Of a stretch of DNA of 28,777 nucleotides, positions 3,643 through 8,351 are shown in pieces. The notes under the pieces were generated by a model. It had not been told where the DNA came from. It did not search any database and saw nothing but the letters and a program-made list of their open reading frames with translations. Location: the IMG/VR virus record IMGVR_UViG_3300045975_000133, positions 1 through 28,777 of that record; one strand, written 5' to 3'. The translations under genes and the position numbers were made by a program. Origin of the DNA: a virus. Positions within the stretch are counted from its first letter, which is position 1. Every line of letters starts with the position of its first letter.

Positions 3643-3670
3643 TTTTTTGCTTCTAACAGGCTGCACAAAA
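3643..3670 (+). repeat. 28-nt direct repeat, copy B, upstream of the protease-capsid gene
   Basis: This copy is identical over 28 bases to 1509-1536, starts 10 bases after the portal stop and ends 29 bases before the GTG start at 3700. As at copy A, the downstream gene lacks a Shine-Dalgarno. The word CGATC follows both copies after one or two variable bases. The fixed position relative to two different head genes argues for a regulatory element. Confidence 0.75.
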
Positions 3671-3699: not shown

Positions 3700-5667
3700 G
3701 TGACCACGCCACGCACCAACACAACACAAAAAAGCGAAGCTGAGATCATTCGAGAGTTGATCGGGCAGCGCCAGGATCGCACGTTTGTGATCGTGGACCA
3801 GCAGCGCGCGATCGATGAGGAGGCGCGCACGGTCCAGGTGGCGTTTGCCTCAGAGACACCGATCGAGCGGTGGTACGGCACTGAGGTGTTGCGTTGTGAT
3901 CCAGGGTCAGTGATGTTGGAGCGCCTCAACAACGGGGGCGCGCTCCTGGCCGATCACAACACGCGCAACCAGGTGGGTGCGGTGGTCCGCGGCACAGCGC
4001 GCGCTGATGGTGATCGCATTTGCCGGGCTACCGTGAAGTTTTCCCAACGCCGCGCGGGTGCTGACGAATTCCAGGATGTGAAAGACGAGATCCGATCGCA
4101 AATATCCGTGGGCTACGTGGTCCACGAATACACGGTTGATAAAGACACGGAAACCTACACGGCCACGCGTTGGGAACCGTTAGAGATCTCCACCGTTTCG
4201 ATCGCGGCTGATGTGGTGGGTGCCGGCGTTGGCCGTGACCACCCGGCCGCAGTGCCAACGCCACCAGCAACACCCACCACGCCAACAGCAACACCAACCA
4301 CAAATAATTTGGAAAGAGGTGCCGCAACAATGGAACCAAACATAGAGCAACCAACCGCACCGGCGATCGTTTCGGAGGTTGCGCGCGCAACCGAGATCAT
4401 GGATCTGGCAAAGGTGATCGATGCACCTGGCGAAACGCTCGCGCAGGAAGTGGCGCGGGATGCGATCGCCGGCGGCAAGACACTGGCAGAATTCCGGCAA
4501 ATGGTTTTTGACAAGCGGCGCGAACGCGAACAGCGCAACCAAACACCGGTGACGGTCCAGGGCAACGTGATCGATCTCACGGAGCGCGAGAAAAAACAGT
4601 TTTCGATCCGCAACGCGATCCTGGCCGATGTGAACGTGCGCATGGGGCAAAGATCGGAAAACAGTTTCGAGTTGGAGATCAGCGAGGAGATCGCCAAGCG
4701 GTTGCCGGCCAATCACCAGCGGCATGGCGGCATTCTGATCCCGACCACGATCGCCTTGCGAGGGGGACCGGAATTCTTAGCACGCCGCGCGCCGGCGCAA
4801 GTGCGCGCCGGGTTGGACACCAAGACCAGCACCAAAGGCCAGGAGCTGGTTTTTACTGAATTCGGATCCTTCATTGATCTGCTACGCAACCGCGCGTTGG
4901 TGATCGCGTTGGGGGCCACGGTGTTGCCAGGGTTACAGGGCAACGTGGCGTTTCCGCGGCAGACCGGCGCCGGCACGTTGGTGTGGGTGACTGAGAATCC
5001 GGGATCCGATGTGGCCGAGTCCAACCTGACGTTGGACCAGGTTGTCTTATCACCCAAAACCGCGCAAAGCACCACTAGTTATTCCCGGCAGCTCCTGGCA
5101 CAAAGTGCGGTCGATGTTGACGGGTTGGTGATGAACGATCTTTCAGAGATCACGGCACTAGGTATTGATCTGGCGGCACTGCACGGCACCGGCGCGCCGC
5201 AACCAACCGGCATCTACACGGCCACCGGCGTTAATTCGGTCGCGTTTGGGGGATCGGTTACTTATGAAAAGTTGGTGGCAATGGAAACGGAGGTCGCCAG
5301 CGATAATGCCGACATCGGCACAATGGCATACCTGGCCACGCCGCAGGCTCGAGGCAAAGGCAAGATCACACCGGAGCTGGCCGGCGAACTATCGCAACCG
5401 ATCTGGCGCGGCAATGAGGTGAACGGCTACCGCGCGGAAGTTACCAACCAGCTGAAGAAAAATCTTGGCGTGGGCACCAACGAGCATGGTCTAGTGTTTG
5501 GTGTCTGGTCGCAATTGATGATCGGTGAGTGGGGCGTGTTGGAGATCATCACAGATCCTTACGCCAAAAAGAAACAGGGCATGATCGAAGTGACCAGCTT
5601 TATCATGGTCGATGTGCAATTGCGGCATGGCGAAAGTTTCTGCAAGGCCACCGGCTTGATCCCGTAA
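3700..5667 (+). CDS. Prohead protease - HK97-fold major capsid fusion polyprotein
   Basis: The 655-residue product begins with an S78/U35-type prohead protease (about residues 20-180). Candidate catalytic residues are His86 in LLADHN, Ser136 in QISVGYVV and Glu162 in PLEISTVSIAAD. A Pro/Thr-rich linker (about 185-205) leads to a helical, charged delta/scaffold-like segment (about 211-310). An HK97-fold capsid domain follows (about 320-655), with IPTTIALRG, VLPGLQGNVAFPRQTG, VWVTENPGS, LSPKTAQSTTSYSRQLL, AALHGTGAPQPTGI and IEVTSFIMVDVQLRHGESF. It would supply protease, scaffold and shell, with the protease released by self-cleavage. The start is a GTG with no clear Shine-Dalgarno. A strong internal ribosome site before Met211 suggests separate capsid synthesis. 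Confidence 0.93.
   Translation: MTTPRTNTTQKSEAEIIRELIGQRQDRTFVIVDQQRAIDEEARTVQVAFASETPIERWYGTEVLRCDPGSVMLERLNNGGALLADHNTRNQVGAVVRGTARADGDRICRATVKFSQRRAGADEFQDVKDEIRSQISVGYVVHEYTVDKDTETYTATRWEPLEISTVSIAADVVGAGVGRDHPAAVPTPPATPTTPTATPTTNNLERGAATMEPNIEQPTAPAIVSEVARATEIMDLAKVIDAPGETLAQEVARDAIAGGKTLAEFRQMVFDKRREREQRNQTPVTVQGNVIDLTEREKKQFSIRNAILADVNVRMGQRSENSFELEISEEIAKRLPANHQRHGGILIPTTIALRGGPEFLARRAPAQVRAGLDTKTSTKGQELVFTEFGSFIDLLRNRALVIALGATVLPGLQGNVAFPRQTGAGTLVWVTENPGSDVAESNLTLDQVVLSPKTAQSTTSYSRQLLAQSAVDVDGLVMNDLSEITALGIDLAALHGTGAPQPTGIYTATGVNSVAFGGSVTYEKLVAMETEVASDNADIGTMAYLATPQARGKGKITPELAGELSQPIWRGNEVNGYRAEVTNQLKKNLGVGTNEHGLVFGVWSQLMIGEWGVLEIITDPYAKKKQGMIEVTSFIMVDVQLRHGESFCKATGLIP
4311..4332 (+). 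promoter_or_regulatory. Internal ribosome-binding site and ATG for a free capsid protein
   Basis: GGAAAGAGGT (4311-4320) stands nine bases before an in-frame ATG at 4330 (Met211 of the fusion). It falls just after the Pro/Thr-rich linker and before the delta/scaffold-like segment. Translation from here gives a 445-residue scaffold-plus-capsid protein without protease. The Shine-Dalgarno is better than that of the upstream GTG start, which fits the need for far more capsid than protease. Confidence 0.6.
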
Positions 5668-5713: not shown

Positions 5714-5971
5714 ATGCCACCGGTGGAAATACAAAACGAAAAGGGACCAACCACGCGGCTGAAGTTTATCCGCAACACCGCATACAACGGCGCGGATTAT
5801 GGTCCAGACTATGAAACCGACACGTGCGAGGTTGACTCACGCTATGCACCGCAGTTTGTGGCTAACGGGCGCGCGGTGGAGGTGGGCGGCAAAGGTGGAC
5901 CAAAGACCGGCGAGGCGCAAACGCGAGATCCCGAACCGGAGAACCGCGATCCCGAACTAAAAAAAAAGTAA
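5714..5971 (+). CDS. Small head protein of unknown function (85 aa), ending in a slippery A-run
   Basis: ATG 5714 follows a clear Shine-Dalgarno (GGAGG at 5701-5705). The product starts PPVEIQNEKGPTTRLKFIRNTAYNGADYGPDYE, a short beta-rich domain, and ends in a low-complexity charged tail with two RDPE-type motifs and three lysines. It lies between the capsid and the FII-like joiner, where lambda has gpFI and other phages have decoration or head-completion proteins. I do not recognise the family. The last codons lie on nine consecutive A bases immediately before the TAA, creating a candidate -1 frameshift site that would add a lysine-rich tail. Confidence 0.7.
   Translation: MPPVEIQNEKGPTTRLKFIRNTAYNGADYGPDYETDTCEVDSRYAPQFVANGRAVEVGGKGGPKTGEAQTRDPEPENRDPELKKK
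5962..5968 (+). other. Candidate -1 programmed frameshift site A_AAA_AAG
   Basis: In the zero frame the codons are AAA (5963-5965), AAG (5966-5968) and then TAA (5969-5971). The heptamer A AAA AAG is the E. coli dnaX slippery sequence and is in the correct phase. A -1 slip bypasses the stop and enters a frame open to 6054. Frameshifting is inferred; a homopolymer sequencing error would give the same picture. Confidence 0.5.
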
Positions 5972-6054
5972 AGCGAGGCGCACGCGTTAAGCAATTGATC
6001 TTGCCGGTGAAAAAAACGAAAAAGGCCAGCAGCAAAAAGGCGCCAAAAAAATAA
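5968..6054 (+). CDS. Lysine-rich frameshift extension of the small head protein
   Basis: Read in the -1 frame, this stretch begins VKRGARVKQLILPVKKTKKA and continues SSKKAPKK before a TAA at 6052, 28 residues in total. It has no convincing start of its own (only in-frame TTG and GTG codons without a Shine-Dalgarno). It fills the otherwise empty space up to the next gene at 6058. About half the residues are Lys or Arg, so it could contact DNA or the negatively charged inner shell. If no frameshift occurs this is simply intergenic. Confidence 0.4.
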   Translation, partial: VKRGARVKQLILPVKKTKKASSKKAPKK

Positions 6055-6057
6055 GGA

Positions 6058-6375
6058 ATGCTGATCGAAAGTGCAGCGGATCGACTCGAGTTCTTTGACA
6101 CTGATGATTTTGCCGTTAATTGCGCTTTGGTGGGGCCGGACTATACGAAAACGATCGCGGTGATCATGAACGCGGTTAGCGAGGCAGTAACGATTTACGA
6201 CACCAACATTGAAGCACCGCAACCGCATTTCCTTTGCCTGGTGGAACAGATAAACGATCTCAACCGGCGCCTGGTAAAGCAATTCACGGCCACGATCGAA
6301 GGTGTTAGTTACCAGCTCGAGCGGATCAGTGATGATCAGGATGGCTTGATTGCCACGGTGTATTTGAAAAAGTGA
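6058..6375 (+). CDS. Head-tail joining protein, lambda FII-like
   Basis: The 105-residue product starts LIESAADRLEFFDTDDFAVNCALVG, the typical opening of small FII-type head-tail joining proteins. It continues with a beta-rich body (KTIAVIMNAVSEAVTIYDTNIEAPQ) and ends with GVSYQLERISDDQDGLIATVYLKK, like the usual 'g..Y.v..i..d..g...l.L'. Members bind the gpW-completed head and form the platform for the tail. The size is close to lambda gpFII (117). The ATG follows AAGGA by only one base, so initiation may rely on coupling to the upstream reading frame, which in its -1 extension ends at 6054. Its order after capsid genes and before the tail terminator agrees with the role. Confidence 0.75.
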   Translation: MLIESAADRLEFFDTDDFAVNCALVGPDYTKTIAVIMNAVSEAVTIYDTNIEAPQPHFLCLVEQINDLNRRLVKQFTATIEGVSYQLERISDDQDGLIATVYLKK

Positions 6376-7794: not shown

Positions 7795-8151
7795 ATGAGT
7801 AAAAAGATAGATCTCAAGCGATTGCAAAGCGGCAACAAACACACGGTGCGCGTGCAATTGGAATTTGAGGAAAACGGCCACAAGGAAACAGAAACCATGC
7901 GCGTGGTCTATCGCGGGATCACCATGATCGAAGCTGACGAATTAGAAAAGCGCATGACCGAAGGGATCAAAGAGGGCAACCACCGCGAGGTGTTGATCGC
8001 CTGGTTGGCTGAATCGGTGATCGAGTTGCCGGATCTGGTCGATGGCGATCAACCGGTGAAACCAAGCGTGGAATTTTTTGGATCGTTGGATACAAAGTTT
8101 TTGAGTCAGATCCACAAAACGATCGTGGATGATCGCGTGGGAAACGATTAA
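7795..8151 (+). CDS. Tail assembly chaperone, lambda G-like
   Basis: This 118-residue, charged protein (KKIDLKRLQSGNKHTVRVQLEF, RVVYRGITMIEADELEKRM) lies between the tube and the tape measure, the invariant place of the G-type chaperone that coats the tape measure during tail assembly. The zero-frame stop is preceded by GGGAAAC in correct slippery phase, and the -1 frame is open downstream for 68 codons, giving the GT-type product. Sequence similarity to lambda gpG itself is not obvious, so the call rests on position, length and the frameshift. AAAGGAAAAG 5-15 bases upstream serves as a ribosome site. Confidence 0.82.
   Translation: MSKKIDLKRLQSGNKHTVRVQLEFEENGHKETETMRVVYRGITMIEADELEKRMTEGIKEGNHREVLIAWLAESVIELPDLVDGDQPVKPSVEFFGSLDTKFLSQIHKTIVDDRVGND
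8139..8145 (+). other. Programmed -1 frameshift site GGGAAAC (G to GT)
   Basis: The zero-frame codons are GTG GGA AAC GAT TAA, so the heptamer G GGA AAC fits the X XXY YYZ rule (lambda uses GGGAAAG). After slipping, the next codon is CGA at 8145 and the reading frame stays open to 8351. Position and geometry match the conserved tail-chaperone frameshift of long-tailed phages. Confidence 0.85.
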
Positions 8152-8351
8152 ACCTGGACGCGCTGATCAAGTGGTATCGCACGGCCGGCCAACCAGTGCG
8201 CCAGGGTTTACCGTTCGAGGGCCAGGAGCTGATCGATCTCGCATTTGCGTTACATATGATGCCCGATCAGATTTTGCAAAGTGACACCACCTGGATCCAC
8301 AAAATGTTGGCCGCATATGCCGCGCGCGTGATGGCACACCGGCAAGACTAA
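8145..8351 (+). CDS. T domain of the GT frameshift tail chaperone
   Basis: This segment is read only after the -1 slip and gives 68 residues starting RLNLDALIKWYRTAGQPVRQGLPFEG. The segments LIDLAFALHMMPDQIL and IHKMLAAYAARVMAHRQ are helical, as expected for a T domain. The full G-T product would be about 185 residues (7795-8144 joined to 8145-8351). In lambda the GT form is made at a few percent of G and bridges the tape measure to tube subunits. The segment has no start codon with a ribosome site of its own, and the tape-measure gene starts six bases after its stop, both of which support the frameshift reading. Confidence 0.8.
   Translation, partial: RLNLDALIKWYRTAGQPVRQGLPFEGQELIDLAFALHMMPDQILQSDTTWIHKMLAAYAARVMAHRQD

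Follow-up and report, generated by a model that had tools for sequence, protein, structure and literature searches.

Gene order and features of the locus

The window (the whole stretch of DNA analysed here, 28,777 bases) is the record of an uncultured virus, one of a group of such viruses of bacteria. A small head gene at 5714–5971 lies between the genes for a major capsid protein (phrog_617) and a head-completion protein (phrog_82), which is the place of FI in phage lambda. The features of the locus are as follows; the lineage counts refer to the eight lineages compared below.

3700–5667, plus strand: protease–major capsid protein fusion, directly 5' of the small head gene (phrog_617 major head protein, E = 5e-127).
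5714–5971, plus strand: putative small head gene of the gpFI type, encoding 85 residues in frame 0 (orthologues, model and fold matches).
5959–5967, plus strand: slippage-prone run of nine A's (A9 or A10 in 8/8 lineages).
5962–5968, plus strand: A_AAA_AAG heptamer, in phase (A_AAA_AAC in four lineages).
5969–5971, plus strand: frame-0 stop right behind the A run (present in 8/8 lineages).
5968–6054, plus strand: −1 frame with a 28-residue Lys/Arg-rich tail plus stop, giving a predicted extended product of 113 residues.
6058–6375, plus strand: Hc1-like head closure gene, next downstream (phrog_82, E = 3.6e-7).

The final codons of the small head gene are CTA AAA AAA AAG TAA and its frame-0 product ends in ...DPELKKK. 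The initial annotation had placed nine A's directly before the stop; the nine A's are present, with G5968 intervening before the TAA. Its heptamer A_AAA_AAG is in the correct phase, and a second in-phase heptamer, A_AAA_AAA at 5959–5965, overlaps it. Read from 5968, the −1 frame encodes VKRGARVKQLILPVKKTKKASSKKAPKK followed by a stop at 6052–6054, with 12 Lys or Arg among its 28 residues (43%). The stop is separated by 3 nt from the ATG of the Hc1-like gene at 6058, so that the basic tail fills the gap between the two genes, as had been described. Addition of one A to the run also leads to the 113-residue product.

The heptamer alone is not rare, as AAAAAAG occurs eight times on both strands of the window compared with 4.4 expected. 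Runs of at least nine A's are uncommon, with two in 28.8 kb. Contigs assembled from other metagenomes show the run at the same length and in the same register (L005 agrees with L006, and L010 with L011 and L015), which makes an assembly error unlikely. The other A9 run of the window, at 1451–1459, is located near the 3' end of a small Cys-containing open reading frame (1277–1477) and is read in frame as three Lys codons.

Predicted fold and assignment of the small head protein

Two AlphaFold2 models of the frame-0 product are well ordered over residues 11–50, and both match the head-binding domain of gpFI (2lsm) with Z scores of 5.6 and 5.5 over 50 of 61 residues. This is the only phage head protein among the top-ranking matches, where GINS and ribosomal L9 domains score about equally; YqbF, which we take to be a prophage-borne protein, is also among the matches (Z = 3.7). 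The matches from a viral-structure search were all weak and involved phage proteins that are unnamed or labelled DUF7210. At the sequence level, the gene had no DNA or protein matches in 50,697 phage records, the window protein had no matches in Pfam, and a profile search of PDB sequences gave no match to gpFI or its solved relatives; the family is very divergent. The fold match together with the matching gene position makes a gpFI-like chaperone the best assignment for this gene, with moderate support. For gpFI, a place on the gpE capsid lattice and an action that depends on non-specific DNA binding have been proposed (PMC4856287).

Conservation among related viruses

A search with the capsid protein identified 26 viral loci. 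The arrangement was compared across eight distinct IMG/VR lineages (window/L003, L004, L005–L006, L012, L007, L013, L009 and L010–L011–L015), in which the orthologous gene product is 60–68% identical. Each of the eight has a run of A9 or A10 and a stop directly after AAG or AAC, followed by an open −1 frame of 27–40 codons with a Lys/Arg content of 29–43%. In all eight, the tail stop closes at the Hc1 start codon, from 3 nt before its first base to 4 nt past it. The tail sequence itself has diverged among them while the arrangement has been kept. These lineages form one clade (support 100/100) and the arrangement corresponds to one change on the tree; they share ancestry, and counts over them are not independent events. 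Added scans with the small head gene and with Hc1 found no new lineage.

In the sister lineage L016 the run is missing, and the frame-0 product has a longer C-terminus similar to a Rho_N domain; this likeness comes from a weak Pfam match for a single member of the alignment. More than 40 more distant relatives also have no such run, and many of them have a short, basic frame-0 tail (for example L051, ...KSKAPPARKTTPPAARKTSATKSAPARKR). Since many relatives outside the clade carry a basic tail in frame 0, it is likely to be a genuine part of the protein. The initial annotation had suggested comparing homologues for the A run and the −1 frame: both are kept in the eight close lineages, and the frame-0 tails or missing runs that it would have counted against the proposal occur only outside the clade. 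In the simplest history suggested by these sequences, an in-frame basic tail was placed behind a slippage site once and has been retained since.

Bacterial genomes searched with the window capsid gave no matches, and a profile search of bacterial genomes yielded six distant loci, four of which are labelled Acidobacteriota or Terriglobia. The nearest cultured capsid relatives are ∼35–37% identical and include phages Arya and Persinger, the post-capsid proteins of which are longer frame-0 products whose C-terminal portion looks Rho_N/HeH-like by eye.

Two further features were noted among the eight lineages. A second, single-domain capsid-like gene is present between the protease–capsid fusion and the gpFI-like gene in L007 (8001–9192; an open frame of 382 residues, 50% identical to the capsid part), L013, L009 and L010, and is missing from the window. 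L004 contains a further A9 run (3646–3654) within its −1 tail.

Probable coding character of the −1 tail

The tails are short and low in complexity. The chance of an open frame is 0.37–0.74 for a single tail, which is weak evidence alone, and net charge does not discriminate, as frame 0 is equally basic. Both points would suit an untranslated −1 frame, with the segment serving the Hc1 gene as spacer or leader and the Lys content following from A-rich sequence. This explanation is very improbable given the joint properties of the tails: when pooled, the eight contain no stop (P = 0.002 against dinucleotide shuffles) and only three acidic residues in 262 (16.8 expected), and their mutual similarity reaches z = 16 in the −1 frame versus 7.5 and 3.4 in the other two frames. 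Furthermore, the tail stop falls at the Hc1 start in all eight lineages despite unequal tail lengths. The closest pair, L009 and L010, differ by ten substitutions, distributed 1/4/5 over the −1 codon positions. Compared with randomly placed changes, these spare the −1 protein (P = 0.025), an effect confined to that frame; the sole indel between the pair is 12 nt long.

Two other routes to a translated tail were rejected. ATG, GTG and TTG are all absent from four of the eight tails, and thus ordinary internal initiation, or a translation restart within the tail, cannot explain its expression. The tail cannot be an N-terminal extension of Hc1, as the two are in different frames in five of the eight lineages.

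The poly-A run and the −1 tail are very probably a built-in switch, not a pattern that arose by chance, in line with the original judgement that such a combination is unlikely to be noise, and from these sequence patterns we regard recoding at the end of the gene as highly likely.

Possible modes of recoding: polymerase or ribosomal slippage

Slippage of the RNA polymerase and slippage of the ribosome would yield an identical extended protein. Provided that recoding occurs, polymerase slippage is the mode that we consider somewhat probable, because four lineages have AAC instead of AAG as the last codon, conserved stimulators are lacking and the run always contains at least nine A's (nine or ten in each lineage), although six suffice for a heptamer. 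Neither a Shine–Dalgarno-like element nor a downstream structure is conserved in the eight lineages (downstream folding z scores of −1.9 to +2.0); such elements are usual, but not universal, stimulators of −1 ribosomal frameshifting. Selection against slippage-prone runs is visible from nine bases in many bacterial genomes (PMC1088944), and efficient slippage of bacterial polymerase in vivo is likewise seen at nine (PMC5009743). In Citrobacter rodentium tssM1, polymerase slippage on an A11 run produces a longer form at a level of ∼20% without ribosomal signals (PMC4256274). The third base of the codon preceding the run is A in all eight lineages, whether that codon specifies Leu, Glu or Thr; the product of the usage frequencies for this base is 6e-6, a value for lineages that are not independent. 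This A would also be required by the second heptamer, A_AAA_AAA, so the sequence fits both modes.

Alternatively, the ribosome could generate both products through programmed −1 frameshifting at either heptamer, A_AAA_AAG or A_AAA_AAA, in the manner of E. coli dnaX and the phage G/GT genes. As an account of the locus we consider this unlikely, and even with recoding taken as given ribosomal slippage has, in our estimate, somewhat less than an even chance. In-phase X_XXY_YYZ heptamers are present in all eight lineages, several phage G/GT genes use AAAAAAG (PMC3483164), and shift sites that immediately precede a stop are known (PMC3483164; in a few bacteria also in dnaX, PMC5009743). The ribosome may be slowed by the adjacent stop codon, which would help, and the G/GT-type gene of the window itself has an in-phase G_GGA_AAC shortly before its stop. 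The run length is compatible with ribosomal slippage, yet nine or ten A's where six would be enough, the AAC codons and the unconserved stimulators all count against this mechanism. The dnaX-type signal of the initial annotation is thus retained in part: recoding that would add a polycationic tail has a conserved basis in all eight lineages, and a ribosomal mechanism of the dnaX type is less certain.

Runs of A9 or A10 are also prone to slippage during replication, and phase variation, in which altered run lengths would commit each phage to either the short or the long protein, is highly improbable, as the 11 contigs examined, which come from several metagenomes, all share one register, with no long-form genome among them.

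Proposed model for two forms of a gpFI-like packaging chaperone

In the reading that we prefer (probability about 0.6), drawn from the conserved sequence features described above, the locus encodes a gpFI-like DNA-packaging chaperone in two forms, plain and with a DNA-binding tail, both made from one start codon. The majority of messages would stop right behind the A run, yielding just the head-binding domain, and a fraction would enter the −1 frame at the A9/A10 run to give the domain plus a polycationic tail of 27–40 residues. The frame change would most likely result from insertion of one extra A by RNA polymerase; −1 slippage of ribosomes on A_AAA_AAA or A_AAA_AAG would yield the same protein. 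The head domain would occupy the capsid lattice, where the minority tails may bind DNA non-specifically and help to bring DNA and terminase to the prohead. The DNA binding proposed for gpFI would then come from the polycationic tail, carried by a minority of copies. A narrower proposal, which we hold tentatively, is that polymerase slippage at the conserved run sets the share of chaperone with a DNA-binding tail, such that transcript-level control replaces the in-frame tail of the relatives.

If the model is correct, a packaging chaperone is split by recoding into plain and DNA-binding forms, the proposed DNA-binding role of gpFI becomes directly testable and a conserved phage head-assembly gene joins the few candidates for programmed transcriptional slippage. 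Such tails are overlooked by ordinary gene calling in one frame.

Comparison with known systems

We know of no recoding in lambda gpFI, which resembles the small head protein in its position between capsid and head-completion genes, modestly in fold as predicted for the latter, and in having a part that would bind DNA. It differs in that its head-binding domain is C-terminal, whereas in the window the corresponding putative domain is N-terminal and the basic tail would be reached by recoding. The tssM1 gene is similar in having a poly-A run before a stop, a longer minor form produced by slippage and no ribosomal stimulators; it differs in being a secretion gene with a long C-terminal domain and a stop 28 nt downstream, compared with the short basic tail and immediate stop of the phage head gene. 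Recoding extends virion proteins in T7 (10A/10B), T3, A2 and the Listeria phages PSA and A118 (PMC5009743). These cases share recoding at a gene end that leads to a minor, C-terminally extended structural protein, but it is the major capsid protein that is extended, often by Ig-like domains, through ribosomal shifting. Lambda G/GT and E. coli dnaX also have an in-phase slippery heptamer, and the window gene differs from them in that no conserved stimulators were found and the run is longer than required.

The literature searched contained no description of a gpFI-like gene recoded at its end, or of a phage head gene in which polymerase slippage is conserved; for a Campylobacter phage methylase, polymerase slippage has only been suggested (PMC2853527). 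The original statement that recoding is undescribed at the position between capsid and FII-like genes needs a qualifier, since fusion of the capsid protein with a gpFI-like protein by a −1 shift has been proposed for TP901-1 and Listeria phages (Popovic et al., cited through PMC4493119). This proposal likewise involves a gpFI-like protein, in a different arrangement: gpFI would be fused to the capsid protein, whereas in the window the shift would take place at the end of the gpFI-like gene itself.

Elsewhere in the window, 7795–8351 encodes a tail assembly chaperone pair of the lambda G/GT type, in which G_GGA_AAC at 8139–8145 is in phase, one codon before the stop, and the −1 frame is open to about 8351.
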